A DNA stretch of 64,000 nucleotides from Cymodocea nodosa (Eukaryota > Streptophyta > Magnoliopsida > Alismatales > Cymodoceaceae): assembly GCA_036874045.1 (NCBI GenBank), contig JAZBRI010000011.1, positions 3,410,001-3,474,000 of the forward strand, read 5' to 3'. Under the pieces are notes generated by a model. The model searched no databases. It saw only the letters and a list, made by a program, of their open reading frames with translations, and was not told the DNA's origin. A program made the position numbers and the translations under genes. Below, piece after piece: positions 23,839-59,868 of this stretch (positions are counted from its first letter, which is position 1; each line of letters opens with the position of its first letter).

Positions 23839-24039
23839 CCTATATTTCCAATATTCAAAATGTATTTTGTTTAGAATGAAAAAGTGCATATTATTAATGG
23901 TTAAATGATGGTTAATTGCATAATACTTAGCTTATCATATGAGAATTAAGTCATTATGTTATAATTGCACTGTTATAAGCTTTAATTAAAGAATCTGCTT
24001 AAATTGGGGGAATTAATGTCAATTTAGTACATTTCTGAA

Positions 24040-27746: not shown

Positions 27747-28874
27747 TTAACCTATATATTTTTGGAAGATAAACGAACCTGTCCAATCATTATTACTTCA
27801 GATTTAAAAAAGGATCAAATAGCTAAATTAAAAGATGTAGTAAAAAGTTATAAAGAAGCAATAGGATGGACTATGACTGATATAAAAGGGTTAAGTTCAA
27901 CTTTATGCTATCACCACATATATTTAGAAGAGAATGCTAAACCTGTTAGAATTCCTAAGAGGAGATTAAATCCAAACCTTAAAGAAGTAGTCCGGAAGGA
28001 AATAGTTAAATGGTTAGAAAATGACATAATTTATCTGATTTCTGATAGCTCGTGGGTTAATCCAATCCATGTAGTTCTCAAGAAATCAGGATTAACAGTT
28101 ATTAGGAATGAAATTCAAGACTTGATACCTACTAGAATTCAATAAGGCTGGAGAGTATGTATAGACTATAGAAAGTTGAATGTTGTGACTAGGAAAGATC
28201 ATTTTCCCTTACCTTTTATAGATCAAATGTTGGAAAGATTAGCAGGGCAAGAATATTTTTCTTTCCTAGACGGGTATTCAGGTTATAATCAAATTCCAGT
28301 AGCATTAGAGGATCAAGAGAAAACAACTTTCACCTGTCCTAACGGAACTTATGCTTTTAAGAGAATGTCATTCGGATTATGCAATGCACCAGATACCTTT
28401 CAAAGGTGTATGTAGGGCATATTTACTAGAATGACTGAAGATTTTTTAGAAATATTTATGGATGATTTTACTGTATATGGCAACTCATATAAAGTCTGTT
28501 TAAGCAATTTAGACCAAATATTAAAATGTTGTGTGGAAAAAAATCTGGTTTTAAATTGGGAAAAATGTCACTTCATGGTTAAACAAGGAATAGTCTTAGG
28601 GCATGTTGTTTCTAAGAAAGGGTTGGAAGTAGATAAAGCTAAAATAGAAGTAATTTCTAATCTACCAGAACCTAAATCAGTAAAAGATATTAGATCATTT
28701 CTAGGACATGCTGGTTTTTATCGAAGATTTATTAAAGACTTTAGCAAGATAACTAGACCTTTAACTAATCTATTAAAAGATGTTCCATTTAACTTTGATA
28801 AAAATTGCAAGGAAGCATTTTTCAGACTTAAAACTAGCTTAATTTCAACTCCTATAATTCAAGCACCTGATTGA
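27747..28874 (+). pseudogene. Athila-1 reverse transcriptase
   Basis: It is in one frame with the protease remnant and with RNase H/integrase. It reads CIDYRKLN, FPLPFIDQMLERLAG, FSFLDGYSGYNQI, FKRMSFGLCNAPDTFQRCM, the catalytic FMDD (nt 28455-28466), GIVLGHVVSKKGLEVD and RSFLGHAGFYRRFI. Stops at about 28143, 28413 and 28872 replace Gln or Trp codons, consistent with C-to-T or G-to-A change. It is otherwise well conserved. Confidence 0.92.
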
Positions 28875-29260
28875 AGACATCCATTTGAATTAATGTGTGA
28901 TGCTTCTGATTTTGCTGTAAGAGTAGTGTTAGGATAGTAGATAGAAAAATCTCCTAGAGTGATTCATTATGCAAGCAAAACCTTAAATGATGCTCAAGTT
29001 AATTACATAACTACTGAAAAAGAATTATTAGCTATTGTGTTTGCCTTAGAAAAGTTTAGATCATATCTAATTGGAGCTAAAGTAATAGTATACACGGATC
29101 ATTCAGCTCTAAAACATCTAATAAAGAAAAAAGAGACTAAACCTAGATTGATCCGATGGATATTATTATTGCAAGAATTTGATTTAGAAATTAAAGATAA
29201 AAAAGATTGTGAGAATGTAGTAGCAGATCATTTATCAAGATTACAAATAGAAAAATCAAA
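28875..29260 (+). pseudogene. Athila-1 RNase H
   Basis: After a stop at 28872 the frame reads PFELMCDASDFAV, two adjacent TAG codons (about 28935), then [37 protein letters not shown] and VADHLSRL. The catalytic residues expected for gypsy RNase H (D of CDASD, E of EKELLA, D of TDH, D of ADHLSR) are present. Only the stops inactivate it. Confidence 0.9.
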
Positions 29261-30620
29261 TATTGAAATTAAGGATAATTTTCCTAATAAACAATTAATG
29301 ACCATCAATACAATACCTTGGTATGCAGGCATAGTTAATTACTTAGTTACTAGTCTAACACCTAAGGATTGGAATAGACAGGATAAGAAATTGTTTTTCT
29401 CAAGAGTAAAATATTACTATTGGGAAGACCCATACTTATTTAAGAAATGTCCTGATCTGATTTTAAAGAGGTGTGTTTCAGAAACTGAATATCCGAGCAT
29501 ATTATCTTTCTGTCATGACCAAGCTTGTGGAGGGCATTTTGGTTCAGGGAAAACTACTGCAAAAATTCTGCAATGTGGGTTTTATTGGCCAACACTATTC
29601 AAAGATGCTCATAAATATTTCTTAAGTTGTTTAAGATGTCAACAAATAGGAAGAATATCAAAGAGGAATATGATGCCTCTTAATCCTATTGTTGAGGCTG
29701 AAATCTTTGATGTGTGGGGAATAGATTTTATGGGTTTATTTCCTAAGTCTAATCAATTTAATTATATATTGTTGGGGGTGGATTATGTTTCTAAATGGAT
29801 AGAAGCTATTCCTAAAAAAACTAATGATAACAAAGTAGTAATACAATTTATAAGAACAAATATATTTGCTAGATTTGGAATACCTAAAGCTATTATCAGT
29901 GATAGAGGAACTCATTTCTGTAATAGAAGTTTTGAAGCCTTAATGAAGAAATATGGAGTAAACCACAAAATTGCTACATCATATCATCCGCAAACAAGTG
30001 GACAAGTAGAAAGTGCAAACAAACAAATTAAGTTAATCTTAGAAAAAGTAGTAAATCCTACTAAAAGAGGTTGGGCTAATAGATTGATAGATGCACTTTG
30101 GACTTATAGAACTACTTATAAAACGAGCTTAGGTATGTCACCTTTTAAGCTAGTATATGGAAAAAGTTGTCATTTACCAGCTGAAATAGAACATAAAGCT
30201 TATTGGGCATTAAAAACTCTGAACAGTAATTTAAATCAAGTTGTTGAAAATAGAAAAATGCAATTAATTGAATTAGAAGAATTTAAAAATGAAGCTTATT
30301 CGAAGACTATAAGAGAAAAAGAGAAAATGAAATTCTGGCATGATAGAAAAATTATTCCAAAAAGCTTTGAAATAAGACAAGAAGTATATCTTTATATGGC
30401 TAGACTCCATAACCATTCAAGAAAATTAAGATCTAGATGGGCAGGACCTTACATAGTTCGAAATATTTATCCTTATAGAGCTATTGAAATTGAAAATCCA
30501 AAAAATCAGAATATATTTAAAGTAAATGGACAAAGACTTAGACCTATTTTGAAAACACCAAAAAGCTCCTTTGGAATTATAGAAGAAGTCAGAGTAGAGG
30601 ACTACTCGAGCATTACTTAG
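29261..30620 (+). CDS. Athila-1 integrase (intact part of a dead pol)
   Basis: It belongs to a 553-codon open stretch from 28959. Using that numbering, the zinc head is H186, H193, C224, C227. The catalytic DD35E triad is D256 (GIDFMG), D315 (SDRGTHF) and E351 (QVESANK). The Athila block [17 protein letters not shown] follows near 397-413, and a C-terminal SH3-like tail has [17 protein letters not shown]. No stop interrupts the domain, unlike the rest of pol. It would bind LTR ends and insert cDNA. Without translation through upstream stops it is not expected to be made. Confidence 0.9.
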
Positions 30621-33361: not shown

Positions 33362-34337
33362 ATTGTATTGTTCATCTACTTGTATAAAATTGTATGAAAA
33401 TGTCTGATGTATTTCTAATGTAAATTGATTCATATTAATGAATATAATTTTTTAGAGATACTTTTCATACGTGTTTTGAATGTGAAATGAATAGAATGTA
33501 TTGAATGTTATATAATTTGTGGAACTTTATGAATGAATGTTTAACAGATTTACAATTTGCTGAATGAAAGGATAAATGCTTAAAAATTTCTGCATGTTGC
33601 AAGGTAAAATGTAAATTCTACATAACATAAAATGACCTACAAGTTAAATCTTTATATAATGTTCAGATTAAAATGAATTTTGATTAGAATGATGCATTAA
33701 TGACATAGATTTAACTTTATTTCAGTTAAGCAGAATGAAAAAGAAAAAAAAATAGAGAGGAATTTACGAGAAGTAAAACTTAGAGGTTGCTAAGTGTTAA
33801 CTCAATGAAGTTTGTTGAGTTAAATGTAACTCCACAAGGTCAGTAATATAATATAAGGTCACTCCGTTGAGTTATCTGTAACTCAATGAAGTTAGTCTGT
33901 GGAGTTAGCAACAGTAACCAACTATGTTCTGTTGAGTTATCTGTAACTCAACGATGTTAGTTCATGGATTAAGCAGAACGGTTATTCTTTTAACCACGAA
34001 CGAAACTTTGTCGGTTTAGCGGTTACCAAAATTTGAAATTAATAGTGATACACATACTCATAAAAATAGGAACCACGATGCACGTTACAAGACACATTCT
34101 TGCAACAAGATTTATTCACTTTATGGATGTGCATTATATATATAAAACAGAATGTTATTTACGAGTTACCAGCACTTTTAAAAGAAAGGAGAATGCGTTG
34201 GAGGAACTGGAAGGAGAAGCAGCTGATTCAACTTCATCCGACAACAAATATTTATTGAATGGAAAGCTTTAGACTGGTATGTAATTAATCTTCTGCTATT
34301 TATTTATGAGCACATGGACCTGTTCTCTAAGCACTAA
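33362..34337 (+). other. Spacer between env-like ORF and capsid gag, with palindrome cluster
   Basis: 33362-33780 is AT-rich with nothing recognised. At 33790-33985 are palindromes: AACTCAATGAAGT, TTGAGTTA-n-TAACTCCAC, CTCCGTTGAGTTATCTGTAA and CTGTTGAGTTA-n-TAACTCAACGA. At about 34068 is AACCACGATGCACGTTA, close to AACCACGATTGCACGTAT in the Athila LTR (about 24750). The stretch therefore looks like a piece of LTR control sequence in front of gag. A 79-codon ORF at 34033-34272 is not recognised. Confidence 0.5.
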
Positions 34338-35646: not shown

Positions 35647-35836
35647 AAGTAGCATATCTGAAGCAACTACCTATATATATATATGTTTTTATTTATAGTT
35701 AATAGTATCATAGAGTTAGTCCTTAACTCAACGAACTTAGTCTATTGAGTTATGCCTTAACTCCACGAGGGTGTGCAGTAGTTATGTTAATTTTTATCTC
35801 TACTAAATATTTGTTTGTGTTATACAGAATCGACAA
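35647..35836 (+). promoter_or_regulatory. Palindromes upstream of the F-box-like ORF
   Basis: The spacer is only 190 bp. At 35712-35770 it reads GAGTTAGTCCTTAACTCAACGAAC, in two overlapping halves, then GTCTATTGAGTTA-n-TTAACTCCACGAG. Athila-2 has the same at 48385-48445. A (TA) run lies at about 35672-35685. Confidence 0.5.
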
Positions 35837-36970
35837 ATGGAATTGATGCAATTACCGTTGGATGCACTAAGGGAAGTATTGAGTAATTTATCAGCTAAAG
35901 ATCTATGCAGGCTGTGTAGTGTATCAAAAGAAATTAAAGACTATATTGAAGAAAAATATTTTCAGGGACTACAAGCTGCAAAAATGACTAAGATTAGAGA
36001 TGGATTCATATGGAGGTCATTTAATCGTAGTTCAATTAACCATAAATATCTTGCTATGGAAGAAACTACTAGAATTCCACCCAATACATTAGAAGGAATA
36101 GATCATATTAAGGGGATAGATAAAGGATTAATCATATACAGGACGAGACCAAGGTATGCAAGTTTATTACCTGATATTTTGATAAGAAATCCTATAACAA
36201 GAGAAGAATGGAATATAGGAAGACCTAATAGATATGAAGTACCAACTATAAATTGTGGGTCGGTTTTAATATTTTCTGATAAAAATTCTGCAATTCCTGA
36301 AAAATTATATTATTGGAGACCTATAGGAAATTGGGATGAAGATTTACGCTTAAGTGTGTATAATTTTCTAAATAGATCTTGGAATGAAAATATTATGATA
36401 TATCTAGGACAAAAATCATTAATTAACCAAACACATGTCATACTTGATGGATATATATATCTAGTCACAAATATATCAATAGCATTTGGATCTGATTTAT
36501 ACATAGTGAGCATAGACAGTTATGATGAATTTATAGAAATTTTACCTATACTGAGAGAAATAACTAAACCACCATTTGTAGAATTTAATAAAATTCAAAT
36601 AGGAGTGTGGTATAATGAAGAAGATGATCCTACTTTATGTCTGATAAGATGGTGGGATGAATTGATGAAATTTCAAATATGGATTATGAAAGACATTAAT
36701 GAATGGAAGTGGGAAGAGGAATATATTGAAATAGATGTAGAAATAGAAACTACAACATTACCCTGGAATCAAAAAGGATCCCTTTCTGCATTTCATATCA
36801 TTAATGGTAATACATTTGTATTTGGAATTTATAATATATTACACGTTTACAAATTAAGAAGGAACAGGAAGTGCATTAAAACAAAATTAATAGCAACAAC
36901 TATACCTAAAAAGTTTGCTTGGACTGATACATTTATTCCATTTGTTCCTACTTTTCAATCATGTTCTTAA
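35837..36970 (+). CDS. F-box/FBA-like protein carried by Athila-1
   Basis: Fully open, 377 codons, ATG at 35837, stop TAA at 36968-36970. Residues about 5-45 fit an F-box (LPLDALREVLSNLSAKDLCR, then CSVSKEIKDYIEEKYF). About 100-340 resemble an F-box-associated domain: ILIRNPITREEW (cf. WNPxTRE), VILDGYIYLVTNIS (cf. LNGxLYW), FGSDLYIVSIDS and KFQIWIMKDINEWKWEEE (cf. VWVMKE...W). In plants such proteins are substrate adaptors of SCF ubiquitin ligases, binding SKP1 through the F-box. Here it sits between gag and the 3' LTR. A decayed homologue in the same place in Athila-2 (47185-48314) shows it belongs to the element. It has no stops while neighbours have many. Homology is judged by eye. Confidence 0.72.
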   Translation: MELMQLPLDALREVLSNLSAKDLCRLCSVSKEIKDYIEEKYFQGLQAAKMTKIRDGFIWRSFNRSSINHKYLAMEETTRIPPNTLEGIDHIKGIDKGLIIYRTRPRYASLLPDILIRNPITREEWNIGRPNRYEVPTINCGSVLIFSDKNSAIPEKLYYWRPIGNWDEDLRLSVYNFLNRSWNENIMIYLGQKSLINQTHVILDGYIYLVTNISIAFGSDLYIVSIDSYDEFIEILPILREITKPPFVEFNKIQIGVWYNEEDDPTLCLIRWWDELMKFQIWIMKDINEWKWEEEYIEIDVEIETTTLPWNQKGSLSAFHIINGNTFVFGIYNILHVYKLRRNRKCIKTKLIATTIPKKFAWTDTFIPFVPTFQSCS

Positions 36971-38718: not shown

Positions 38719-40184
38719 TGTTTAGAATGAAAAATTGCATATTATTAACAGTTAAATGATGGTTAATTGCATAATATTTAGCTTATCATATGAGAATTAA
38801 GCCATTATGTTATAATTGCACTATTATAAGCTTTAATTAAAGAATCTGCTTAAATTGGGGGAATTAATGTCAATTTAGTACATTTCTGAGATGTCGGTAA
38901 GTTGCAGGCTGTGAAATTCTTAAGTATCCGAATTTTCTGATATTTCGAATAGTTATGTTTAACATACCGAACATATTTCGAACAGTTATGTTTAACAGAC
39001 TGAACATGTCGGATAGTTATGTTTAAATTGCCGAACAATTATGTTTTGAAAGAATATTTTATTATTTCCTGAAGTACACGTGTCAAAATCATAATGCATG
39101 ACTTAAGTGAACTTTCGGTTAGTTATCTATAACTATCCGAAATTGCAGCTGGGCATCGAATAGTTATATGTGTAACTCTCCAAAATATCTTTTTATTTAT
39201 AAAATAGCTGTGGACACGTGTCATGTTCTAGGAAAGTGACTTAAGTGGATTTTCGGTGAGTTATCTCTAACTATCCAAAATGCATCTGAGCATCGAATAG
39301 TTAGACCTGTAACTCTCCGAAATGTTTATTTTATTATTAAACTGCTACTGACACATGTCGAGATCTAGTAGATTTACTTAAGTTATATATCATTGAGTTA
39401 TCTGTAAGTATCCGAAATACATCTAAGCATCGGATAGTTAAGTTTGTAAGTATCCGAAATGCATCTGAGCATCGGATAGTTAAATTTATGCACGTGTTTT
39501 ATAGTTAAATCAACGAAGAAAGTCTGTTATCTGTAACTCCATGGACTATTTATTTTCTAATATGCCACTGTAGCGATTGCAGGAACAGGACAGTTGGAAG
39601 AAAAACCACGATTGCACGTATCGCGTAGGGAGAAGAAAGCATTGCCGTTGATATGAATGAAGGAAATCAAACCGACCATTCAAGTAGAAGCAATTACTAC
39701 TAAAGAAATATAAAAGAAAAGAAGAAAAAGAAGAAAAGTGTGTGATTGATGGACGGCCAATGTATACAAAGGAGCACTGAGCTTTCTACAGGCAGTATCG
39801 ACAATTCTCCGAAGTACCACACCAACCATCATTACCACCACCATAATCATCAACCATCAGAGGTCTGTGAGGATACTTTTTTGATGTCGGGTCAATTCCG
39901 AGCCAAACACAGTGTTTGACAACCATTGTGAAGAGTGATCGCGTCGCGAGAAGGGAAGCCATTTTCACCAAGCGCCGACTTATATTTCAGGAGATCGTAA
40001 AGCTTTTAGCCTTGGCTTCGGGTTAATGCCTGTATGCTGAAGAGGAGATCATCTTGCAAATCTGGACTCGCAATTCTATAGAGAGAGGAGACAGAATTGT
40101 AAGTGGTTTAATTTTCAATGGTGTAATCGTGTTGCAAGTAGTGACGAAAGTATTTACTGTCGAGTGAGATTACTTTACATTTCA
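38719..40184 (+). repeat. Athila-1 3' LTR, truncated
   Basis: It matches the 5' LTR from its first base to about LTR position 1465, then switches at CATTTCA (40178-40184) into a Sirevirus LTR. About 730 bp of the LTR, its 3' target duplication and flanking gag are missing. Both partners contain CATTTCA at the join. Confidence 0.9.
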
Positions 40185-41295
40185 TGCATACCCTCCACGT
40201 TTAATCACTACTAGTTTTCCACTTCTTCACATCTTTTCTTTTTCCTTCATCGAAATACACACATTCTAACCCACGTTTACATTTCGAATTTTCTTTAATC
40301 ATCAATCCTAGATCTTTGAAAAATTTTCTGCAAAATAAACTTTCTCGTCCAAAATTTTTCATCAAGTGCAATAAGAAGTCATTACTTTAATGTTAACTAA
40401 ATGAGTAACACAAGTATATATATAACTTAACATTTCTAACTTAACGAGTTCCTCATGTACCAACTCACGTGACAAGTACTGTAGCTAACTCAACAAACTA
40501 AGTCTATGGTGTTACGCTAACTCAACGAACTAACTTTGTGGTGTTACGATAACTCAACAAACCGTCTTAACCTTTCTTTCGAAAGGTTAAATGCTAACTC
40601 ACTGAAAACAATTTAAGTATCAGATAGTTAAGTTTTCTAAGTATCTGAAAATCTGATAACTCACCGATCTAGTAATAAACAAATGTTTTTATAATAAGAA
40701 TTTTACCACATGCAATAATAACAACTTAAGTTTATAACGCTAACCTAACGCGTTGCCTTAGTGTTCAATATAGCAACTCAACGTGTGTAGTTATGTTAAC
40801 TTAACGAATTAAACATTTGCACCTCTCATGATACAATATAACATTCGTAACTTCTAATTTCACCACGTGTACAACACTAACTTAACGAGTTTGTCTCTTC
40901 TATTACTCACTAACTTAACGAGTTCTCACGTGACCTATTTTAACCTTTAAGCCTCTAACTTAACGAGTTCTCATGTGAACTCTATACAAATAATACTCTA
41001 ACTTAATGAGTTGTCTAAACATGCACTGTTCATGACACTGAAAATATAACTTTAAAACATATCATGTTTTTCAATAAAAATACACGTTAACTTAACGTTT
41101 AGTTAAATGAGAATTTAATCCAATGAAACAACTAGTTATTAACTTAGTATAATTTCAGATCCAATGTAGACAAGTATTTATATTAGTAAGCTTTTTCTGT
41201 ATTAATTGATGTTTTAATTTCTTTCACAAGCAATAGTAATTGAGTAAATATGATTACTTTCATTCAACACACATCTTCAAAAAAAAATACTTAAC
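40178..41295 (-). repeat. Sirevirus LTR fragment (5' LTR of Sirevirus-2)
   Basis: It lacks about the first 560 bp (plus-strand sense) and ends ATACTTAACA. Its orientation and position fit the 5' LTR of the element whose gag is at 18885-23867; the segment between was deleted. At about 40560-40670 it differs from other copies by holding GTATCAGATAGTTA...GATAACTCACCGAT, the hairpin type otherwise seen in Athila and family-B LTRs. Confidence 0.8.
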
Positions 41296-44200
41296 AAATA
41301 TTAAGTCCAATTTGTATTTTAACTACAAGTGCACAGTGTATATTGTATTTGTGTGCAAGTACAAGTCGATCCCACAAAGATTGAGTAAGAATTGTGTATT
41401 ATTTTTTATTTTTATATTGGAGTTTATATGTGTTTAGTTGAGCACTCCATTGAGTTACAATTAACTCAACAAACTTAGTTCGTGGAGTTATGGTTAACTC
41501 AACGGACTAACCTTATGGACTTAAGTTAACTCCATAAGCCTACCTTTCCAATTAAATACTGTTATTCACAGAGGAATGCAGCCAACCATTAGGCGGTTAC
41601 ATAGAATGTAAATAACATCAATTAAGCTCTTTAATGTTAATCTAAGATTTGTCATTAAGCAACACTAACATTCAGATATTTCAAATAGTAACCATTAAAA
41701 TCTTTAAGTATTTGGGATGAATCAATTTCAGTAAACAATAAAACTATTTTCTATTTTTCTAAATCAAACAAACATAAAACAACCACAATACTGACAATGA
41801 TAACATTAATCACAATACAAAACAAACAATAAAACACTTTAATACTAAATGTAAACACAGATAAGTAGTTGTTTTTGGTATTTTTGTTTTGATATGTTCT
41901 TGAAGATGAGTAGAAGGTGAAATGTAAAAATCTCTATCGACAATAAAAACTTCTGTCACTACATGCGACGCGATTACACCACTGAAAACATAATCACTTA
42001 CAATCTTGCCTCCTCTCTCTATAGAGTCGCGAATCAAGAATTGTAAGTTGATCTCCTCTTCAGCATACTGGCATCAACCCGAAACCAAGGCTAGAAGTTT
42101 TACGATCTCTTGAGATATGAGTCAGTGCTTGGTAAAAATGGCTTCCCTTCCTATAGCGTGATCACTCCTCATAGTGGTTGTCAGTCACCATGTTTGGCTC
42201 GGAATCGACTTGACATCCAGAAAGTATCCTCACAGACCTCCGATGGTTGGTGATTTTGGTGGTGGTGTGGAGCTTTAGGGAACTTCCAACGCTTCCTACA
42301 GTTAGCACGGTCCTCCACCCATACAACACACATTTTTCATCATTCTCCTTTTCTTTCATATTTCTTTCAGTAGTAAATGCTTCTACCTAAATGATCAATT
42401 AGATTTCCTTCATTCCTATCAACGATAGTGATTTTTTTTTTCATTTCATGAGTGAATTTGTACGTGATACGTGCAATCGTAGCTTTCCTTCGAATTTCCT
42501 ATTTTTGCAACTGCTACGATAGCATATTAGAAAATAAATGGTCTGTGGAGTTAGTGTAACTCAATGGACTTACTTCGTTGACTTAACTATAAAACATATG
42601 CAATAAAGAAATAAGCTTATAACACTAACACAATACATTACCTTAATGTATATTCAAGTAACTCAATGTGTATAGTTATGCTAACTTAACGAGTTATACA
42701 TGTATAACTCACGTGACATAGTAAAGCATTTAAATTCAACATATGCATTTAACGAGTTATACATGTGCAACTCATGTGACATAGTAAAGCATTTAAATTC
42801 AACACGTGCATAATTATAACTTAACGAGTTCAGATATACAACTTACAATTTTTACTCACTAACTCAATGAGTTCTCACGTGATCTTTTTACACCTTTAAA
42901 TCTATAACTTAACAAGTTAGCATGTGATCTGTTTAGAATGAAAAAGTGCATATTATTAACGGTTAAATGATGGTTAATTGCATAATATTTAGCTTATCAT
43001 ATGAGAATTAAGCCATTATGTTATAATTGCACTATTATATGCTTTAATTGAAGAATCTGCTTAATTTTGGGGAATTAATGTTAATTTAGTACATTTATGA
43101 ACTGTCGGTAAGTTGCAGGCTGTGAAATTCTTAAGTATCCGAATTTTCTGATATTTCGGACAGTTATGTTTAACAGACCGAAGATGTATCGGATAATTAT
43201 GTTTAAATTGCCAAACATTTATGTTTAGAGAGAATATTTTATTATTTCCAGATGTACACGTGTCGAAACCAGAATGAATGTCTTAAGTGAATTTTCGATG
43301 AGTTAGCTGTAACTATCCGAAAATGCATCTGAGCATCAGATAGTTAGACCTGTAACTCTCCGAAATGTTATTTTATGTTTAAACTGCTGCTGACACGTGT
43401 CAAGATCTAGTAGATTTACTTAAGTTATAACTCATTAAGTTAGCATAACTATACGTGTTAAGTTACATGAATATACACTAAGGTAATGCGTTAGGTTAGC
43501 GGCTTATTTCTTTATTGCATGTATTATATAGTTATTTTCCAAAATGCCACTATAGCGGTTGTAGGAACAAACAGTTGGAAGGAAAAACCACGTTTGCACG
43601 TATCACGCAGGAATTCAATCGCGCACGGAGAAGGAAACATCGCCGTTGATCTGAAGGAAGGAAATCCAACCGATCATTCAAGCAGAAGCAGTTACTACTG
43701 AAGAAATATAAAAGAAAAGAAGAAAGTGTGATTGATGGACGGCCAGTGTATACAAAGGAGGAGCACTGAGCTTTCTACAGACAGTATCGGCGATTCTCCG
43801 AAGTATCACACCAACCATCGTTATCACCACCATAATCACCAATCATCGGAGGTCTGTGAGGATACTTGCCTAATGTCGGGTCGATTCCAAGTCAAACACA
43901 GTGCCTGACAACCACTGTAAGGAGTGATCGCATCACGGGAAGGGAAGACATTTTCACCAAGCGCCGACTCATATTTCAGGAGATCATAAAGCTTTTAGCC
44001 TTGCCTTCGAGTTGATGCCTGTATGCTGAAGAGGAGATCATCTTGCAATTCTGGACTCGCGATTCTATAGGGAGAGGAGATAGAATTGTAAGTCATTTAA
44101 TTTTCAGTGGTGTAATCGCGTTGCAAGTAGTGTCGGAAGTATTTACTGTCAAGTGAGATTACTTTACATTTCACCTTTCGCCCATCTCCATGTTCACATC

Positions 44201-45341
44201 AAAACAAAAATACCAAAAACAATTTATCTTTGTTTGTATGTTGTATTTGAGTGTTGTATTGTTTGTGTTGTATCGTGATTAATGTTATCTGTATCAGTTT
44301 TATGATTGTTTTATGTTAGTTTTAATTTTACAGTTTACTGAAATTGGTTCGTACAAAAAAACTTAAAGATTTTAATGGTTACTGTTTGAATCATCTGAAT
44401 GTTAGCATTGCTTAATGATAAATCCAATGTTAACTAGCATTAAAAAGCTTAATTGATGTTATTTACAATCTATGGAATCGCCCAATGGTTGACCGAATTC
44501 CTCTGTAAATAACAGTATTATAAAGAAGAGACAGGCTCGTGGAGTTAACTTAAGTCCACGAGGATAGTCCGTTGAGTTAGCCATAACTCAATGAACTTAG
44601 TCCGTTGAGTTAACTGTAACTCAACGGAGTGCTTATTGAATATAAATTTGAATTGTTCACAATCAAACATTTCTTAAATTCGTCAGCAATTCCCTGAGGG
44701 ATCGACCTGTACTTGCACACTGATACAATAGACATTGTGCACTTGCAGTTAAAGTACAAATTGGAATTAATATCTAAATTGTATTAAAGGTTGTTTGTTT
44801 ACTTCTAAAAGAAAGAATAGGCATAAAGATAAATTAACTAAGTAAAAATAGAAGTAACAAATCCAAGTTTTTCCAGTGTAGTGCTGGGAAAAACCAAACA
44901 TGATCTTTCAATAAAAAGAACACTAACTCAACGAGTTGTTACTCTGCACCTGTACATGATATAAATATATGCAAATAAAATAGATCATGCTTAATACTAT
45001 AAAATCACACTTAAATCTGGTTTTCAGATCACAACACATGTACTCCAAGAAATAATAAAATATTCTTTCAATGTTTAAAACATAACTGTCTAGTACGTGA
45101 AATATAACTCTCCGAAATAATAGACAATTTAGATACTTAGGAATTAAAAAGCCTATAACTTACCAACAATGCAGAAATATACTTAATTAACTATAATTCC
45201 TTGAAATTATACAAATTCTTTCATTAAAGCATATAACAGTGCAATTATAATATAATGGCTTAATTCTCATATGATAAGCTAAATATTATGCAATTAATCA
45301 TCATTTAACCCTTAATATTATGCACTTTTTTATTCTAAATA
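41296..45341 (-). repeat. Athila-2 3' LTR, chimeric core, interrupted by a solo LTR
   Basis: Both ends are Athila: on the plus strand it begins in the U5 block (ACAAGTGCACAGTG at about 41322) and ends TTCTAAATA at 45341. Its core (42601-42929, resuming 44906-45015) is colinear with the Sirevirus LTR core (18081-18440): the start of TTATAAC.CTAAC, AGTTATG.TAACTTAACGAG, CACGTGATC, and CATGATATA...ATCATGC. Other Athila LTRs have the TCGGATAGTTA array there. At 42679-42800 a unit of about 80 bp with CATTTAAATTCAACA is duplicated. Confidence 0.8.
42930..44900 (+). mobile_element. Solo LTR, Athila family, inside the Athila-2 LTR
   Basis: It runs from TGTTTAGAATG to ACCAAACA with the perfect duplication tgatc at 42925-42929 and 44901-44905. 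At 43430-43515 it also holds a short piece of Sirevirus-like core (CTAAGGTAATGCGTTAGGTTAG), in the same orientation relative to the LTR as in Athila-2. Confidence 0.95.
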
Positions 45342-45357
45342 CTTCCCCCATACTTAA
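45342..45357 (-). promoter_or_regulatory. Polypurine tract, Athila-2
   Basis: The minus strand reads TTAAGTATGGGGGAAG directly before the LTR start (TATTTAGAAT, terminal TG decayed to TA). It is the counterpart of 38705-38718. Confidence 0.85.
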
Positions 45358-47184: not shown

Positions 47185-48314
47185 TTAAGAACATGATTGA
47201 AAAGTAGTGACAAATGGAATAAACATATCAATCCAAGCAAACTTTTTAGGCATAATTCTTCTTACTATCAATTCTGTTTTAATGCAGTCTGCTTGCCTTT
47301 TTAATTTGTAAACTTGCAATATGTTATCAATACTAAATATAAGTGTATTACCATTAATGAATTGAAATGTAGAAAGGGATCCTCTTCTATTCCAAGATAA
47401 TGTAATTGTTTCTATTTCTACATGTATTTCAATATATTCCTCTTCTCACTTCCATTCATTTAGGTCTTTTATAATCCATATTTGAAATTTCATCAATTCA
47501 TCCCACCATCTTATCAGACATAAAGTAGGATCTTCATATTCATTATACCATATTCCTAATTGAATTTTATCATGTTCAACAGATGGTGGTCACTAGGTAT
47601 AGGTAATATTTCTATAAAGTCGTCATCATAACTATTTATGCTTACTATGTATAAATCAAATCTAAATGCAATTGATATATCCATGACTAGATATATATAT
47701 CCATCAAGTATGACATGTATATTGTTAACTAATGCTTTCTCTCCTAGATATATCATATTATTTTTAGTCCAAGATATATTCAGAAAATTATACACACTTA
47801 AGCATAAATCCTCATCCCAATTTCTAGTTAGTCTCCAGTAATACAATTTTTCAAGAATGGTCAAATTTTTATTAGAAAATGTTAAAGCTGACCAACAATT
47901 TTCAATTCGTACTTCAAATCTATTAAGCCTTCCTATATTCTATTCTTCTCTAGTGATAGGATTTCTAATCAAAATATTGGGTAACAGAATTGCATACCTT
48001 GGTTTGGTTTTGTAAATAATCAATCCTTCATCTATCCCCATAATATGATATATTCCTTCTAATGTATTAGGTGGAATTCTAACATTTTCTTCCATATTCA
48101 GATATTCATAACTAATTGAACTATGATTAAATGACTTCCATAACAATCCATCTCTAATATTAGTCATTTTTGTAGCCTATAGTCTATGAAAATATTTTTC
48201 TCTAACACATTCTTTAATTTCCTTTAACACACAATACAATCTGCACAGATCTTTAGTTGATAAGTTACTCAATACTTCCCTTAGTGCATCTAGTGGTAAT
48301 TCCATCAATTCCAT
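47185..48314 (-). pseudogene. F-box/FBA-like pseudogene of Athila-2
   Basis: Minus strand, start codon at 48312-48314 (MELMELPLDALREVLSNLS), colinear with the intact ORF at 35837-36970. The F-box is preserved, then stops near 48180 and 47940 and a run of stops after about 47600 destroy it. Recognisable pieces are ILIRNPITREE, NWDEDLCLSVYNFLN and VILDGYIYLVMDIS. It establishes that the F-box-like gene is a standing part of this lineage. Confidence 0.78.
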
Positions 48315-49203: not shown

Positions 49204-51790
49204 AGTTTGCAGAGACATCTTCCTTTGAGTCTAATGAGCTACTAGAGCTGCTAACATCCTATGTGGCTTCAAGGCCATTTTCTTCTTATTCTTCTTCTTC
49301 CATTTGTGTTTGTCCTCCTCCTATTGGAAAGGACAGTAGAGTTGAATGTCCCTCAATTTTTTGCACTTGTAGCATGTGGGAACTTTTGATCTTGAGGAGC
49401 TGGCTTTACCTCCTTGTCTTATCATCTTTCTAAAATTTTTGGCCAATAGTAAAACTTCATCTTCATCCAAGCTTGATTGGTCTTCTATTGAGGGAAACAC
49501 TAGTTCTTTCTTTTTCTCAAGCTTTCTTTTAGTGGCTCCCTCTTCTTCTTTACATTCCTTCATCTAGACTTCATGAGCAAGAAGATTTCCCAACAGATCT
49601 TCTACTGAATAGTTGTTTAGATCCTTTGAATCTTGTATGGAAGTAAACTTTTGTTTCCATTCAACTATCAAACTTCTTAGAATCTTTTGTACCTATTCAC
49701 GATTAGAAAAATCCCTTCCAAGGCCTCTCAATTCATTCACAATTTCAATGAATCTTGAAAACATTTCAGTAATACTTTCTTTTTCAAGCATTTTGACTAA
49801 TTCATATTTTCTGTAGGATCGTATAGCTACACAAGAGGGGGGGTGAATTGTGTATTTTTAATATTTTCTGAAATATAATTGAAACTTTAAAACTCAAAAA
49901 CAAGTCGAGACATTGTTTTCATAAAATCATTTTTATTCAAGGTTTCAATTACAATATACAATTCAATTCTCCTCAAAAATTGTAGATGCAATTATATTTC
50001 GATACTATGTATCATCTAAACAATTTCATAACTACAAACAAAGAAAACTAATTTGCGGAATTTAAAACTTTTCTCCCTGTTTGAGATCTTTCTTCTTCTT
50101 CTTTTTCTTCTTCAGAAATTCTTCAGTGACGAATATCTTGTCTTTTCATGCTTCACCGAATTTACTTTCTTCTGATACTTCAAATCTTCAGTGACGAAAA
50201 TCTTACCTTTTTATGCTTCATTGAACTTTCTTCCACTTGAGAGATTTTTCCCGAAGAGGTGTTTTTGATCCTTGAAAAAGATTTTTCTTTTGGTGTGCAG
50301 GGATGGTTTGATCCTTGAAAAGATTTTTCGTTTTGTGTGCAAGGATGAATTGATCAATGAGAATTCTATGCCTTTTATATTGTATCTTCATTTCATGCAT
50401 ATCCTTCATGTTTAACCACTACCAGTTTTCCACTTCTCCACGTCTTTTCTTTTTCCTTCATCGAAACACACACGTTCTAACCCACGTTTATATTTCGAAT
50501 TTTCTTTAATCATCAGTCTTGGATCTCTGAAAAAATTCCTGCAAAATAAACTTTCTCGTCCAAAAGTTTTTCATCAATGTAATAAGAAGTCGTTACTTTA
50601 ATGTTAACTAAATGAGTAACACAAGTATATATATAACTTAACGTTTCTAACTTAACGAGTTCCTCATATGTCATTTCACGTGACAAGTACTGTTGCTAAC
50701 TCAACGAACTAAGTCTGTGGTGTTATGCTATCTCAACGAACCATCTCCGTTGTGTTATGATAACTCAACGAACTAGTAACAAACAAATGTTTTTATAATA
50801 AGAATTTTACCACGTGCAAAAATAACAACTTAAGTTTATAACGCTAACCTAACGTGTTGCCTTAGTGTTCAATATAGCAACTCAACGCATTTAGTTATGT
50901 TAACTTAAGGAGTTAAACATGTGCACCTCACGTGATACAATACAACATTCGTAACTTATAATTTCACCACGTGTATAACACTAACTTAACGAGTTCGTCT
51001 CTTCTTTTACTCACTAACTTAACGAGTTATCACGTGACCTATTTTAACCTTTAAGTCTCTAACTTAACGAGTTCTCACGTGACCTCTATACAAACAAAAC
51101 TCTAACTTAACGAGTTGTCTAAACGTGCACTGTTCATGATACAGAAGATATAACATTAAAACATATCATGTTTTTCAATAAAAACACACGTTAACTTAAC
51201 GTTTAGCTAAATGAGAAATTAATGCAACGAAATGACTAGTTATTAACTTCAGATCCAATACAGACAAGTATTTATATCAGTAAGCTTTTTCTGTATTAAT
51301 TAATGATTTTAATTTCTTTTCACAAGCAATAGTAATTGAGCAAATATGATTATTTTCATTCAGCACACATCATCAAAACAAAAATACTCAACATTTTCTT
51401 AACAAAATGCTGATTTTAGTATCTTTTACTTGGCTGGTTCCTTCATATGTAATTTGAAGGATCTTCCAAGCCTCATGAAAAGATTTACAAGTAGATATTT
51501 TATTATACTGTTCACTAGTTAGTGTACAGTAAATGGAATTAAGCTCACGAGCATCCATCTAGATGATTCTTTCATCCTCCTCAGTCTAGTCACTTTCATG
51601 ACTGATTGGAATTGGTGTACCATGTACAATCATTCTCCAAAGTTTTACATCTGTACTCCTGAGAAAACACTCCATCTTGTTTTTCCAGTAGCTATAATTA
51701 CTACCATCAAAGAGGGGAGGTCGATGGATATTTTGTCCCTCTACAATGTGGAAAGTTATGATCTCAAATGGTTAAATCTATTAATGAGAT
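49204..51790 (-). pseudogene. gag of a third copia element, split by a solo LTR
   Basis: Minus strand. From about 51745 it reads PPLFDGSNYSYWKNKM, VKLWRMI and YEGTSQVKDTKI (UBN2-type gag). After the solo LTR it continues with MFSRFIEIVNELRGLGRDF, a Lys/Glu-rich part and a knuckle CYKCKKLRDIQLYC. In that knuckle the zinc-binding His is replaced by Asp, so it is C-x2-C-x4-D-x4-C. Several stops are present. It is joined to Athila-2 at 49203. Confidence 0.82.
49812..51393 (-). mobile_element. Solo LTR, Sirevirus family, in copia-3 gag
   Basis: It runs from TGTAGGATCGTATAG to ATACTCAACA with the perfect duplication ttttc at 49807-49811 and 51394-51398. Removing it joins the gag frame across ISILLRKYELV. 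It is close in sequence to the Sirevirus-1 5' LTR, including the changed segment near the first ORF-like stretch (17463/50218), so it is probably of the same subgroup. Confidence 0.95.
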
Positions 51791-51811: not shown

Positions 51812-53240
51812 TGTTAGGACCTAATGGCTTACCAGAGGGGAGGTGAATGGTAATGTTTTGATTTCTTAAATGTAAATTTAGGAGATTAACAATGAATAAC
51901 TAATTGACAATGTAATTTAGCAAGCACATAATAACAAATAATGCACACAAAGATTTTAGGTGGTTCACCATTAATGGCTAGTCCACCCCCAAGGGATACT
52001 TGGGCTTCACTAAGCTTTCACAAACTTACAAACACTTGCCTTAAGGTCAAAGCAAGAACCAACCAATCAAACTAAGCTTTCTAGTCATAGCTCCACCCAA
52101 CCTATCACTAAAGTTTTTAGTTGGTGCACTTCAGTAAACCACTAGCTTGAAGAAATCAGAATTTATTGCGTGGAGAGCTTCTAGACTTGAGTTTGCATTT
52201 GCTGAATATTTGATCTTGAAGATGTTCTACTATATGCATGAAGTTTGGTGTATGAATTTGTATGTTCAAGAAGTTGTTTAACTCTGTTGTCTGCAGTTTG
52301 TATTTATAATATTATGCATAACGATCATATTTTCTTCCAACAGATGTATTCTGCTATACTTACTGAAATTGTAGAACCAAATATGGTAAGTTACCATTCT
52401 GTATACTGTCCAGCTTGTAACCTTCCGATTCTCTTTAATTTTTGGATGGTTAACTATGTAACTCTTCAAAGGACAATCGTAACTTACCGATAATCCACTT
52501 AAGTCCTTTTTGTCTGTGTCACGTGGGACTTTAAGTCATACATGTGAGGTGTCATAAGTTTGGATGGTTATAACTATTAACTTACCAAAATAGTTCAACT
52601 TTCGGATAGTTAGCTACAGTAACCTTCCGATTCTCCTTAAAAGCTTCCAACTGCTTTCATATTTCTGCACATGCAAAATAGGATGACTTAAGTTTTAGAT
52701 AGTTAAGTCTATAGCCTTCTGAATCTTCTGGTTTTTCAGATAGTTAGCTTTCTAACTCTCTGAAAAGTCCTTTTAAGCTTCTGTTCTAAATTTCTACACA
52801 TGGGAAATTTAATGACTTAAGTTTTGAATAGTTAAATCTGTAACCTTCCAAACCTTCTGGTTTTTCAGATAGTTAGCTTTCTAACTCTCTAAAATGTCCT
52901 TTTAAGCTTCTGTTCTGAATTTCTACACATGGGAAATTTAATGACTTAAGTTTCAGATAGTTAAATCTGTAACCTTCCAAACCTTTTGGTTTTTCGGATA
53001 GTTAGCTTTCTAACTCTCCGATTTTCCATATAGCCATCTTTCTAACTCTCCGATAGAATTCCTACTGCTTTAAACTGCCTTCCAAATACCTAAGCCTGTA
53101 ACTGTCTGATTTTCCTGTAGCTCTATAGTAGCAATTTCTAAACTACTTGTATTTGTTTATCTACCTCCTGATTTTGCTGAATTATCTTAATTGTGAAATA
53201 CAATTTGATTCCTCACATTAATGTTTGCATTATCAAAATC
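51812..53240 (-). repeat. 5' LTR of copia-3 (family B), truncated
   Basis: It begins TGTTAGGACC and is related throughout to the solo LTR at 57463-59251 (AGGTGGTTCACC, CTAGTCCACCCCCAAG, TTGGGCTTCACTAAG, hairpin array, TTTGCATTATCAAAAT). It ends early at about 53240, before the expected GGGTTCTAACA. The array at 52350-53110 has about ten TCGGATAGTTA/TAACTCTCCGA hairpins. Confidence 0.85.
52641..53030 (-). repeat. Tandem units of about 129 bp in the family-B LTR
   Basis: Three consecutive units, marked by AAGCTT at 52641, 52775 and 52904. Each holds CACATG, AATGACTTAAGT, one hairpin (GATAGTTAAATCTGTAACC) and a second hairpin (GATAGTTAGCTTTCTAACTC). Units 2 and 3 are almost identical, so local amplification is recent relative to the LTR. 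Confidence 0.8.
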
Positions 53241-54062
53241 TAAGTTCATTGAGTTTCGCTAACTCCATGAACTAGTTATTTCTCGACGATCATGCAGTGA
53301 GTGGTTGCAGGAAATCTAAAAGAGAAAGAACATGTTGTAGGATCATGTGTAGATAGTTAGATTTTCTCAATGTAATATAAATTGAGTGAAATCAATGTTT
53401 GGAAGTGAGTTCCCTTTCAACAAAAACTCCAAAGAAAAAATTCTAAGAAGACTTGAAGATACATGGAGAGCGAGAGTTGAAAGTCATTAGAAGGAACTCT
53501 ATGGCAATAAAGCTATTACCTAAAGATTTAAGTGTTGTCATATCTACAAGAGGAAAGTTTTATTATGTTTATGCTTTCATGATTAATTCCTCTTTGCATT
53601 ACATTGTTTAATTGAAAAAGAGAACCTATCCACAAGGGGTGTTGTGGAAGAAACTCTAAAAGGTGATCTTTTAGAAGAGTTTCGAGGAACTTTACGAGAG
53701 CACGTAAAGTTGTGTAGATAATTATAAGAAGGCTGGTATAGTTAGCACAATAATTGTATAAGGGTTCGTACAGTTAGAAGGAGAACTTGACAAAGGATTG
53801 GTGTCTTGTCAAGCTGATTTTGCTTTGAGTAAAGCTAGAGACCTTAGGTTTTGAGTGAACCAAAAACTCTTGAAGATAGTGAATTCTTAAGTAGGAACTC
53901 AAGGAATGAACATACCCAGGTTAAGGGGAACCACTATAAATTGTCTACGTGTTTTAATCTTTGTTTTATTTTCACAGTACCAAGATTTAAAAAGGGACCA
54001 AAAATAATACAAAATTTGCAGTGTACTTAATTCACCCCCCTCTTAGTATAAACCTTTCTTAA
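53241..54062 (+). repeat. Remnant of another copia LTR (family D)
   Basis: No ORF. The 3' end TTCACCCCCCTCTTAG...CTTAACA matches the ends, in element orientation, of the Sirevirus and family-B LTRs, so this is a copia LTR on the plus strand ending at about 54062. The beginning contains CATTGAGTTTCGCTAACTCC and GTGGTTGCAGGAA, close to the Athila LTR near 24690. Its left end abuts family B at 53240 without a visible duplication. It lies in the RNase H fragment that resumes at 54063. Confidence 0.55.
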
Positions 54063-54441: not shown

Positions 54442-56293
54442 TATTTAGAATGAAAAAGTGCATAATATTAAGGGTTAAATGATGGTTAATTACATAATAT
54501 TTAACTTATCATATGAGAATTAAGTCATTATGTTATAATTACACTGTTATATGCTTTAATGAAAGAATCTGCATAATTTCAGGGAATTAATGTTAATTAA
54601 GTATATTTCTGAATTATTGATGAGTAGGCTTTGAAATTCCTAAGTATTCGAATTTTCTATTATTTCGAAGAGTTATATTGCATGTACCGGATAGTTATGT
54701 TTTAAACGCTTGAAGAATATTTTATTATTTCCTAGAGTACACGTGTTGAAACCGTAATGCATGACTTAAGTGAATTTTTGGAAGGTTAGGTGCTAACTAT
54801 CCGAAATGCATATAAGTTTCGGATACTTATAGTTGTAACTATTTAAAACATCTGAACTTGTTATTTCTTTATTGCATGTGTTTTATAGTTAAATCAACGA
54901 AGTAAGTCCATTGAGTTATCTGTAACTTCATGGACCTTTTATTTTCTAATATGCCATTGTAACAGTTGCAGAAACAGGAAATTCGAAGGAAAACCACGAT
55001 TGCACGTATCACATAGGAATTCACTCGTGGAATGAATAAGAAATCACCATCGTTGATATGAATGAAGGAAATCCAACCGATCATCTAAGCAAAAGCAATT
55101 ACTACTAAAAGAAATATAAAAGAAGAGGAAAAAGACAAAGAAAGTGTGTGTGTAGAGGTGGAGAACCATGCTAACTATAGGAAACGTCGGAAGTTACTTG
55201 AAGTCCACACCACCACCAAAATCACCAACCATCAGAGGTCTATGAGGATACTTTCTAGATGTCAGGTCGATTCTGAGCCAAACACGGTGGTTGACAATCA
55301 CTGTAAGGAGTGATCGCGTCACGGGAAGGAAAGCCATTTTCACCAAGCACTAACTCATATCTTAGGAGATCGTAAAGCTTCTAGCCTTGGTTTCAGGTTG
55401 ATGCCAGTATGCTGAAGAGGAGGTCATCTTACAATTCTTGATTCGCGATTCTATAGGGAGAGGAGGTAATATTGTAAGTGATTAAGTTTTTAGTGGTATA
55501 ATCACGTCGCATGTAGTGACAGAAGTTTTTACTATCGATAGAGATTTTTTACATTTCATCCTTCACTCATCTTCAAGAACATTCAAAACAAAAATACAAG
55601 AAAACAACAAATTATCTGTGTTTACATTTAGTATTAAAGTGTTGTATTGTTTGTTTTGTATCAGAATTAATGTTATCATTGTCAGTATTGTGAATGTTTT
55701 ATGCTTATTTGATTCAGAAAATAGTTTTATTATTTACTGAAATTGATTTATTCCAAATACTTAAAGATTTTAATGGTTACTATTTGAACTATCTGAATGT
55801 TAGTGTTGCTTAATGATAAATCTAATATTAACTAACATTAAAGAGCTTAATTGATGTTATTTACATTCTATGGAACCACCCAATGGTTGGCCGAATTCCT
55901 CTATGAATAGTAGTATTTAACTGGAAAGGTAAGCTCATGAAGTTAACTTAAGTCCATGAAGTCAGTCCATTGAGTTAGCCATAACTCCACGAACTAAGTC
56001 CATTGTATTAACTGTAACTCAACAAAGTGCTTACTAAACAAATATAAACCTCAATATAAAAATCGAAACAATACACAATTCTTACACAATCTCTATGGGA
56101 TCGACCTGTACTTGCACATAAATACAATATATATTATGTACTTGCAGTTAAAATACAAATTAGAATTAATATCTAATTTGTGTGAAAGGTTGTTTGTTTA
56201 CTTCTAAAGGTAATTATTGATATAAGCATAAAAACAAATCCAAACAAGTTTTCTGGTGGCACCTAACAAATAGAAATTAACAAATCCAATACA
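54442..56293 (+). mobile_element. Solo LTR, Athila-like, nested in LTR C
   Basis: It runs from TATTTAGAATG (TG decayed) to CCAATACA with the perfect duplication tgtga at 54437-54441 and 56294-56298. It is a divergent Athila LTR of the Athila-2 subgroup (the TTCATCCTTCACTCATCTTC stretch corresponds to 41900-41930). Unlike Athila-2 it keeps the hairpin array (54690-54850) and lacks the Sirevirus-like core. Confidence 0.88.
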
Positions 56294-57462: not shown

Positions 57463-59251
57463 TGTTAGGATCGGTAGGCTCACTAGAAGGGGGTTGAATG
57501 GTGAAAGTGTCTAGTTTTTAAAATTCTTTTGATGTTGAATCGAATGATTCAACAGAAATGTAATGAGATAAAATTAAACGAATGCAAATTAGAGAGAAAA
57601 GAAACACATAGCAAATTTTTAGGTGGTTCACCAACTAGGCTAGTCCACCCCCAAGATTCACTTGGGCTTCACTAAGTGTTTCAACACTTACACACTTGCT
57701 TTCAGGTCAAAGCAATAACCAACTACATAGAAGTTTTCAAGTATAAACTTCAGTAAACCAACACTGAATGTAGCTTTCAGGTTGAAGCCACGAACCAACA
57801 ACTTGAATCTTTCAATCAGAGTTTTGGTGCACAGAGCTTTTTCTATAGTAGGTCTTTAGACTATTCTTCACTGTTTGTAGACTTGAGTGTAATTGGAATT
57901 GGAGTGTAGCTCACTATATGTGGTATATCCGTTATCTCTGTCTTTTCCTTTTTTAAACTTCTCATATTTATACCAAAGGTATAACGATCATATTTCTCTG
58001 TCAACGGATGTATTCTACTGTACTTGATTAGACACCAGTCAAATACGGTAAGTTACCATTCAAAAAGTTATTTCAAGATGTCTTACCGATTTTCCTAACC
58101 TTTCGGATAGTTAGCTGTGTAACTCTCCGAAGAAAATCTGTTACTTACCGAAAGATCACTTAAACCTGTCTGCTAGGTAGGATTCCAGAATATTTACTAC
58201 AAGCTGTCATTCAGTCGGATACTTATAACTGTAACTCACCGAACAGTTATATAATTGTCGGATAGTTGGCTACAGTAACCCTCTATTAACTTTCTGATTG
58301 CTCCAATTCAACATGTGCATAAAAGGCTGACTTAAGTTTCAAATGGTTATCCCTGTAACTCACCGAAACACTTCAAGATTTTGGATAGTTATCTTTCTAA
58401 CTCTCCGAAAACTTATTTGAGCTTTTCTCTGGAATTCTACACATGAGAAATTCAATGACTTAAGTTTCAGATGGTTATCCTTGTAACTCACCAAAACACT
58501 TCAAGATTTCGGATAGTTATCTTTCTAACTCTCCGAAAACTTATTTGAGCTTCTTTTTGGAATTTTGCACATGGGAAATTCAATGACTTAAGTTTCGGAT
58601 AGTTAAACTGTAACTTACCAAAACTCTCTTTGAAATTTCGGATAGTTATCTAACTCTCCGATTTTTCCTTTTAAGCTTTCAATTGTCGGCTTCTCCATTT
58701 TGCACGTGCGTAATAAAATGACTTAAGTTCTGGAAAGTTATACCTGTAACTTATCGAAAAACTCGAATAGTTATCTAACTCTCCGAAAAGAAAATTTGGA
58801 TAGTTATCTAACTCTCCGACAAGTCCTTTAAGCTTCCGTTCTGTATTTCTACACGTGATTTATTAAATGACTTAAGTTTCGATAGTTAGCCTTTCTAACT
58901 TTCCGATTTTCCTTTTTTTCTTTCTGATAGTTAACTCCTTAACTCTCCAATCATTCAACCAACTTAGCTGTCCGATTATTTAACTCTCCAAAGGCTTTGA
59001 AAAATTCGGATAGTTATCCTTCTAACTGTTCGATAGTCTTACAGCTGTTTTACTCTTCAGATACTTGGACCTGTAACTGTCCGATTTTCCTGTAGCTTTA
59101 AGGTAGTATCTTCTAGAACTTCCTCCATCTGTTCGTCTGTTTGGAATTTGTTCTATCTGCCTTCTGATCTAATGTTGTTCTGACTTAATTGTGAAATACA
59201 ATATGTTTCCTCACATAGGTTTTGCATTATCAAAATACTCGGGTTCTAACA
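57463..59251 (-). mobile_element. Solo LTR, copia family B, nested in LTR C
   Basis: It runs from TGTTAGGATC to GGTTCTAACA with the perfect duplication attgt at 57458-57462 and 59252-59256. It is the complete form of the LTR truncated at 53240. The hairpin array spans 58060-59080. Two units of about 128 bp (centred near 58350 and 58480) each hold CACATG, AATGACTTAAGT and two hairpins. Confidence 0.93.
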
Positions 59252-59868
59252 ATTGTGTGTTGCATTCTCTTAAGTGATGGATAGAGGGGGACATGAATGA
59301 GGTTTCTCATTACTGATTCAACTCTATATGAAGTTATTTCTAGCATATCCATGATTGTTAAGGCAATCATGTGAGGAGAATGCCTTTACACAAGGCATAT
59401 CTCTATACTCTAGTGAATTTTATTTTTAATTGCTGGTCCCTGTGGACTCGACCTATTCTTGCATGCTTTCTATAATTAACTCCATGTGCTTGCAGTTATA
59501 AATATTAAAACTCAATTGCATGTTAATTTCTTAACATATAAACCTTGAAACCTATGTTGTGCATAAATTCTTTAGATAAAATAGACTTTGAAAGATTATG
59601 AAATTAAGTATGGAATAACTCCTATAAATTGTGATAGTAATAGTGCAATTAGTTTGTCTAAGAATTCTGTGCTACATTCTCAAACAAAACATATTGAAAT
59701 CAAACATCATTTCTTAAGAGATAATGTTATGAAAGAAAATATTGAATTGAACTTTTTACCTATTCATGAGTAGTTGGCAAATATTTTCACAAAGCCTCTT
59801 AAAGAAAAATAATTTATCAAATTGAGAAGAAACTTGGGAATATGTTGCCTAAATGATTTCTAATAATT

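Follow-up and report, generated by a model that had tools for sequence, protein, structure and literature searches.

The window analysed here, 64,000 nucleotides of Cymodocea nodosa (positions 3,410,001-3,474,000 of contig C11), is a repeat-rich plant region that holds long terminal repeats (LTRs) of gypsy-type Athila elements and of two Sirevirus-type copia families, termed S-I and S-II. One of the Athila LTRs, A41298, carries the core of an S-I LTR, and sequence alignment confirms that this chimera is real. Bounded by Athila flanks, Athila LTRs of this genome contain a palindrome-rich block, at most some 440 bp long, that matches the U3 core of a Sirevirus LTR family. Our preferred interpretation, to which we assign a probability of about 0.55, is that recombination brought this block in a single time from a Sirevirus LTR; we predict that it acts as an exchangeable enhancer.

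The Sirevirus-like block of Athila LTR A41298

A41298 lies on the minus strand in two parts, delimited by self-BLAST and junction sequence: the 3' part (41298-42929), truncated distally where it meets a fragment of an S-I LTR (40178-41297), and the 5' part (44901-45341), ahead of which, just outside at 45342, stands the polypurine tract (PPT) GGGGGAAGT. The first-pass annotation had taken 41296-45341 as an LTR that is Athila at both ends, and the flanks bear this out; in self-BLAST they are 86.9% (41298-42614) and 87.7% (45032-45341) identical to the Athila LTR at 54442. The block between them was found by colinear alignment and nhmmer and consists of a larger piece (42607-42929) and a smaller one (44901-45015), both on the minus strand. 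Of the two edges originally proposed, 45015 stands and 42601 is replaced by 42607.

When the solo LTR inserted in it was skipped, the block aligned with positions 200-574 of the S-I LTR in the same sense orientation, as had been claimed for the middle of this LTR, with 293 identities, 78 mismatches and 75 gapped positions. A tandem duplication of 63 bp within the block (42686-42811, minus strand) accounts for much of the gap. The alignment score was 150, compared to a mean of 19.8 (standard deviation 2.7, maximum 30.5) for 500 dinucleotide shuffles and 23.5 for the opposite strand, which rules out that the similarity is one of scattered motifs lacking colinearity. All five S-I LTRs of the window align with the block (scores 129.5-150); in a joint alignment the block is 70.7-74.6% identical to them, and the S-I copies are 90.9-96.2% identical among themselves. 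At E <1e-10 the block occurs in the window solely in S-I LTRs and in two Athila LTRs; weaker matches are to other parts of S-I LTRs, to one S-II position and to the block itself. Insertion of a whole Sirevirus LTR, or of a fragment with its own ends, is likewise ruled out: the block edges lie near positions 200 and 576 of the 1,568-bp S-I LTR, and neither LTR ends nor a target duplication are present there.

The same junction is found across the genome

The genome scanned comprises 374.6 Mb in 28 contigs. With the block and its adjoining Athila flank as query, the best 40 of 7,461 first-look candidates were scored, and all 40, the window's own copy included, span the junction with 77-100% identity. 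Of the 30 block loci retrieved, 29 lie outside the window. The Athila 3' flank abuts the block in each of these 29, and the 5' flank was also found, by script criterion, in 27, so that several chimeric LTRs with the block between common Athila flanks exist, as the first-pass annotation had proposed to check. Two-parent LTRs joined at common breakpoints are a mark of LTR swapping: the right edge of the block is at S-I position 576 in 20/29 loci (range 550-584), and the motif CACGTG follows at 578. The left edge, measured on an S-I reference trimmed to 180-590, is variable (190, 200, 220, 270-276, 309-320, 333, 371-375, 400, 421 and 459). Several of these edges are near palindrome starts (278, 321, 366 and 399), but alignment ends tend toward common motifs and this proximity was therefore not relied upon. 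Two of the fetched loci (L015 and L020) contain two or three copies of the Athila 5' flank together with part of the block, a pattern suggestive of unequal exchange within the core of the LTR. Another, L012, also holds an S-I LTR.

A 34-bp junction pattern, allowing up to 3 mismatches, was found at 1,458 sites (755 + 703), and its reversed control at none. The pattern counts junctions rather than complete LTRs, and it undercounts, missing A41298 (12 mismatches) and five of these 29 copies; S-I loci, of which 30 were fetched, are 13-15 bases away from it. At 5,938 genome sites the S-I core is followed by its own right flank (control 0). For the best 40 S-I matches, which were scored, identity to the query was 97-100% in a first search and 93-100% in a second, and S-I, as judged from loci L034-L063 and genome-wide, appears very abundant and uniform, which suggests a recent expansion. 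A composite pattern made of the motifs noted at first reading had no match in the genome, and searches of viral, genome-contig and plasmid sequence collections, which hold few or no plant sequences, found no match.

The block at both ends of one Athila element

Two of the fetched loci, L026 and L013, lie 18.5 kb apart on the same strand of contig C2 and both carry the block. A sequence resembling a primer-binding site (PBS) is present behind L026 (recognised by eye; a stricter script pattern flagged none), and a PPT ahead of L013. The two LTRs are identical at 1,640 of 1,785 aligned bases (91.9%; Kimura two-parameter distance 0.088, 127 transitions and 18 transversions), which among the matches listed is the highest identity of either with the 28 other loci. 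One junction variant was found in these two loci only (2/29). Between them are stretches of Athila protease, reverse transcriptase (RT) and RNaseH-integrase, 88-91% identical to the Athila of the window, and an F-box-like stretch (84% identity). A recombinant LTR is thus present at both ends of one element, and the chimeric LTR is found outside the window in a pair that brackets Athila pol stretches, as the first-pass annotation had suggested looking for. Because both LTRs flanking the Athila genes carry the block, it very likely was present before the element integrated and moved with it. Some observations weigh against this pairing: by raw score L013 matches L020, L023 and L004 better than L026, although at lower identity; in BLAST it is outside the top three of L026; and the far end of its LTR is cut. 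Alternatively, one LTR may have been converted later by the other.

A solo LTR inside the block points to a single origin

The two pieces of the block in A41298 are separated by a solo Athila LTR (42930-44900, plus strand), whose target duplication TGATC supports an insertion later than the host LTR, in agreement with the relative age first assigned to it. This LTR itself retains part of the block (43423-43511, plus strand, nhmmer E 6.4e-11), 85-90 bp long as measured and close to the roughly 85 bp initially noted, with the same right junction as A41298. In 80 comparable columns, 57 agree throughout and 11 are changed alike in A41298 and the solo LTR relative to S-I; private changes number 8 in A41298 and 4 in the solo LTR. 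Because the junction and the 11 derived bases are common to both LTRs, the data fit one origin of the block inside Athila rather than two captures or local conversion. Gene conversion of A41298 alone by a neighbouring Sirevirus LTR was considered and is ruled out by the same two features together with the many copies that have this junction.

The insertion site of the solo LTR (TGATC at 42925-42930 and 44900-44905) adjoins a palindrome and a G-box-like site inside the palindromic block. A weak insertion preference of Athila for palindromes has been described (PMC6911290).

Assignment of the families

Family names were based on gene order and junction motifs and, for Athila, also on a putative Athila-type PBS and on the naming in the first-pass annotation. 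Both Sirevirus-type families lie on the minus strand. S-I has the copia gene order, with integrase before RT (rve at 7928-8962, then RVT_2 at 6485-7387, minus strand). Its 3' LTR starts at 161 and is marked by the PPT octamer AGGGGGAG followed by AT/TG (171-160, minus strand), a Sirevirus motif (PMC2829016); as to the several identical PPT copies listed for Sireviruses near the 3' LTR, one additional octamer was found on the same strand of the window, at 5042. The junction of the S-I 5' LTR with the PBS reads ACA/AGTGG/TATTAGAGC, which is one PBS base off the Sirevirus form CA/ATTGG/TATCAGAGC (G permitted at the second position). This 5' LTR (17073-18640, minus strand, 1,568 bp, PBS junction adjoining) holds the core matching the block at 18065-18440. 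Further S-I LTR copies with the core, identified by self-BLAST and core alignment, are at 1357-2998, 19368-20941, 40178-41297 (truncated) and 49808-51393, all on the minus strand. The CGG-CCG core was not found in the palindromes of the S-I LTRs, which have the form AACTCGTTAAGTT. The signature is present in 12 of 13 listed Sirevirus elements, Tnd-1 being without it in Table 3 of PMC2829016, and is therefore not obligatory for a Sirevirus. S-II has both the exact published junction CA/ATTGG/TATCAGAGC, at 51798, and CGG-CCG palindromes, its arrays being built of CGGATAGTTA...TAACTCTCCG units. It is represented by a Sirevirus-type solo LTR with the target duplication ATTGT (57463-59251, minus strand; 57467-59252 used in computations) and by a second LTR (51814-53245, minus strand), which adjoins the PBS junction ATTGG-TATCAGAGC.

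Athila has the gypsy gene order, with RVT_1 (28146-28871) followed by RNaseH and rve (28959-30620). Behind its 5' LTR, after 26062, is the PBS TGGCACCGTTGCCGGGGA, which we take to be of the Athila type. Besides A41298 (41298-45341, minus strand), Athila-type LTRs in the window are those at 23868, 38719, 42930 (the solo LTR), 54442 and 61325. A truncated Athila LTR is joined to the truncated S-I LTR at a 7-base match (region 40160-40205). An F-box gene is located downstream of pol in Athila, at 35837-36970 (plus strand), at 47185-48314 (minus strand) and at 3252-4391 of locus L033; the open reading frame (ORF) encodes 377 amino acids and matches the Pfam F-box with an E value of 1.7e-9. The stretch is 84% identical in the second window copy and in the element on contig C2, and has the appearance of a host gene retained by this Athila family. 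A protein search with this ORF found nothing in collections with few or no plant sequences.

An alternative Athila core matches a second Sirevirus family

At the place of the block, other Athila LTRs had been noted to hold a different hairpin array. This array, which we call state 2 (the block being state 1), does differ from the S-I block, but it proved to match the LTR of S-II, in inverted orientation; that the alternative core also matches a Sirevirus LTR is new here. State-2 arrays are at 24038-24625 (LTR 23868), 38931-39483 (LTR 38719), 54689-54929 (a short one, LTR 54442) and 61549-61959 (LTR 61325), all on the plus strand. The first 850 bp of each Athila LTR were compared with both families, using 100 shuffles each. 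A41298 scored 150 with S-I and was near background with S-II (16.5 inverted, 21.5 sense; shuffle maxima 21.5 and 19.5), whereas the LTRs at 54442, 61325, 23868 and 38719 gave inverted S-II scores of 45, 58.5, 73 and 82.5, respectively, and 13.5-21.5 with S-I. The solo LTR scored 39 with S-I in sense and 39 (sense) and 41 (inverted) with S-II. Since hairpins are palindromic, the sense scores with S-II (32-42) serve as a built-in control for common hairpins. In a comparison with 15 S-II loci, one of them the window's, the inverted score was above the sense score in 15/15 for three of the Athila LTRs and in 13/15 for the LTR at 54442, S-I controls reaching at most 22.5. The S-I and S-II cores score 17.0 and 14.5 with each other, values obtained without shuffles for that pair.

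In different copies the Athila slot thus holds sequence in common with two Sirevirus families, which show no match to each other in the core, and cross-superfamily sharing is seen in two modules. The second is the less certain, the S-II match being more diverged, repeat-based and weaker than that of S-I. The inverted orientation is at odds with simple sense-strand template switching; for the S-II module it suggests a DNA route. In a wider proposal, which we advance tentatively and at somewhat less than even odds, palindromic U3 cassettes are a common pool of gypsy and copia elements, unrelated Sirevirus families have supplied the content of the Athila slot on two or more occasions, one in sense and one in inverted orientation, and the promoters of the two superfamilies evolve as exchangeable parts independent of the coding regions.

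Conservation of the motifs and a possible regulatory role

When the block is compared between Athila and S-I, identity is 87.5-93.8% in palindrome and CACGTG columns and 70.0-72.6% in spacers; in none of five comparisons did a circular shift of the motif mask reach that difference. In state 2 the motifs are 81.7-89.5% and the spacers 67.1-69.8% identical, with 1/477, 1/505 and 5/367 shifts reaching the difference. CACGTG is a plant G-box, a site for bZIP and bHLH factors, and the AAC-containing half-sites resemble MYB sites. The conservation fits an array of transcription-factor sites that selection has maintained in the two families; these dyad sites, arrayed upstream of the TATA box, would be bound by a host transcription factor that both families use, and the block is predicted to act as an exchangeable enhancer. 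In five of the six Athila LTRs the modules are upstream of TATAAAAG. Two results weigh against such a role in A41298: TATAAAAG of the other Athila LTRs is absent from it, and RNA folding of the block is weak (z of -1.6 and -1.3, controls 0.0 and -1.1), so that folding was not used for state 1. Folding of the state-2 arrays is stronger (z of -3.8 and -5.8).

A third hairpin type, CGTTGAGTTA...TAACTCAACG, is common to S-I LTRs and to Athila LTRs and internal regions (scores of 20.5-40 compared to shuffle maxima of 13.5-20), and AGTTA/TAACT half-sites recur in several hairpin types of these LTRs. Within Athila, CGTTGAGTTA...TAACTCAACG hairpins are at 30903, 33813-33953 and 35733-35743, and at 46768 and 48419; one such internal group lies about 100 bp ahead of the F-box ORF, a placement reminiscent of the RM boxes that precede the envelope gene of Sireviruses (PMC2829016).

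Donor, direction and route

The first-pass annotation proposed that a control module was replaced across superfamilies. The flank and junction data support the replacement, while the donor superfamily and the control of transcription are what we infer. Recombination would have brought in the block a single time from a Sirevirus LTR, through strand transfer in reverse transcription, a possible route described in PMC1950507, or through DNA joining at short matches; the module would then have spread with Athila and been shortened from the left side in some copies. We prefer a Sirevirus as the donor on two grounds: the literature presents palindromic LTR arrays as characteristic of Sireviruses (PMC2829016), and the content of the Athila slot differs from copy to copy.

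A different route to the same arrangement would be a Sirevirus inserted in an Athila LTR, reduced to a solo LTR and trimmed by end deletions until the core was left. Nesting and LTR fusion do occur here, for example in the Athila/S-I joint at the 7-base match 40178-40184. However, neither Sirevirus LTR ends nor a duplication are present at the block edges, and the block occupies the place of a like array in other Athila LTRs instead of interrupting an array; we consider this route rather unlikely.

The direction of transfer could also be the reverse, with an Athila LTR core entering an S-I ancestor that then expanded to thousands of copies. The diversity, and with it the age, of the Athila blocks counts against a Sirevirus donor: mean block identity is 90.0% among Athila copies, 97.4% among S-I copies and 78.3% between the groups. 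In the midpoint-rooted block tree, in which Athila rows were anchored on the Athila flank, the S-I copies form one clade nested within Athila, which is thereby paraphyletic (support 0.08); taken literally, this favours the reverse direction. The S-I palindromes, moreover, are not of the CGG-CCG kind. On the other hand, the decay of the Athila copies makes midpoint rooting untrustworthy in this case, Sireviruses in general are described as having palindromic arrays in their LTRs (PMC2829016), and the block is in five of five S-I LTRs of the window whereas the Athila slot has alternative contents. The tree leaves the direction unsettled; on these grounds together, a reverse transfer is unlikely.

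A third source from which the two families each acquired the block, such as a host sequence or a different mobile element, is improbable, since in the window the block is confined at E <1e-10 to S-I LTRs and two Athila LTRs, and the best 40 scored matches of each of three queries are all Athila-flanked or S-I copies. Convergence on short palindromic motifs selected by a common host factor would account for the recurring AGTTA/TAACT half-sites but is hardly credible given a colinear match that scores far above shuffles and includes spacers (70.0-72.6% identity) and, for the S-II array, inverted scores above sense scores in 58/60 comparisons.

Gypsy and copia elements are usually regarded as distinct lineages, in each of which the LTRs evolve together with the coding regions they flank. 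More than 1,000 cross-superfamily junction sites mean that LTR similarity can mislead classification; the two superfamilies may respond to the same host factor, and retrotransposon promoters could be taken from rivals. The proposal is testable within one genome, by asking whether Athila copies with different cores are active in different tissues, each like its Sirevirus counterpart.

Comparison with known systems

In the literature searched, with subscription journals mostly outside it, no report of an LTR core common to a gypsy and a copia family was found, in line with the earlier statement that sharing between Sirevirus and Athila LTRs is undescribed. Exchange within superfamilies is already known, and we rate the sharing of a core across superfamilies as a new form of modular LTR evolution. 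LTR swapping in soybean (Du et al. 2010, by its title an exchange of LTRs between elements) reportedly took place between gypsy-type partners. The partners found here, gypsy and copia, are not of one family or superfamily.

Repeated palindromic motifs are found genus-wide in Sirevirus LTRs (Bousios et al. 2010, PMC2829016). As in those LTRs, many dyad motifs are arrayed upstream of the TATA box in each LTR, with CGG-CCG in S-II; unlike the copia Sireviruses described there, such arrays are here also present in gypsy Athila LTRs, and S-I lacks CGG-CCG, as does Tnd-1. Athila lineages of Arabidopsis recombine, 4/13 being recombinant (Marco and Marin 2008, PMC2410132), which is likewise an exchange of parts, but the partners are all Athila and that text does not use the word copia. 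Recombination among centromeric gypsy subfamilies (PMC4079200) and within Onsen (PMC5668417), and the elements of PMC1950507, similarly gave chimeric LTRs or elements that proliferate; as described there, the recombining elements come from one family or from closely related subfamilies, whereas here gypsy and copia are joined. The U3 of Tnt1 evolves in modules (PMC1838419), and gypsy Del LTRs have plastic 5' CpG islands (PMC4029996). Both resemble the present case in having a fast-changing regulatory LTR part beside conserved coding parts; a donor from another superfamily is not described in the available portions of either paper, while the exchange proposed here would cross superfamilies.

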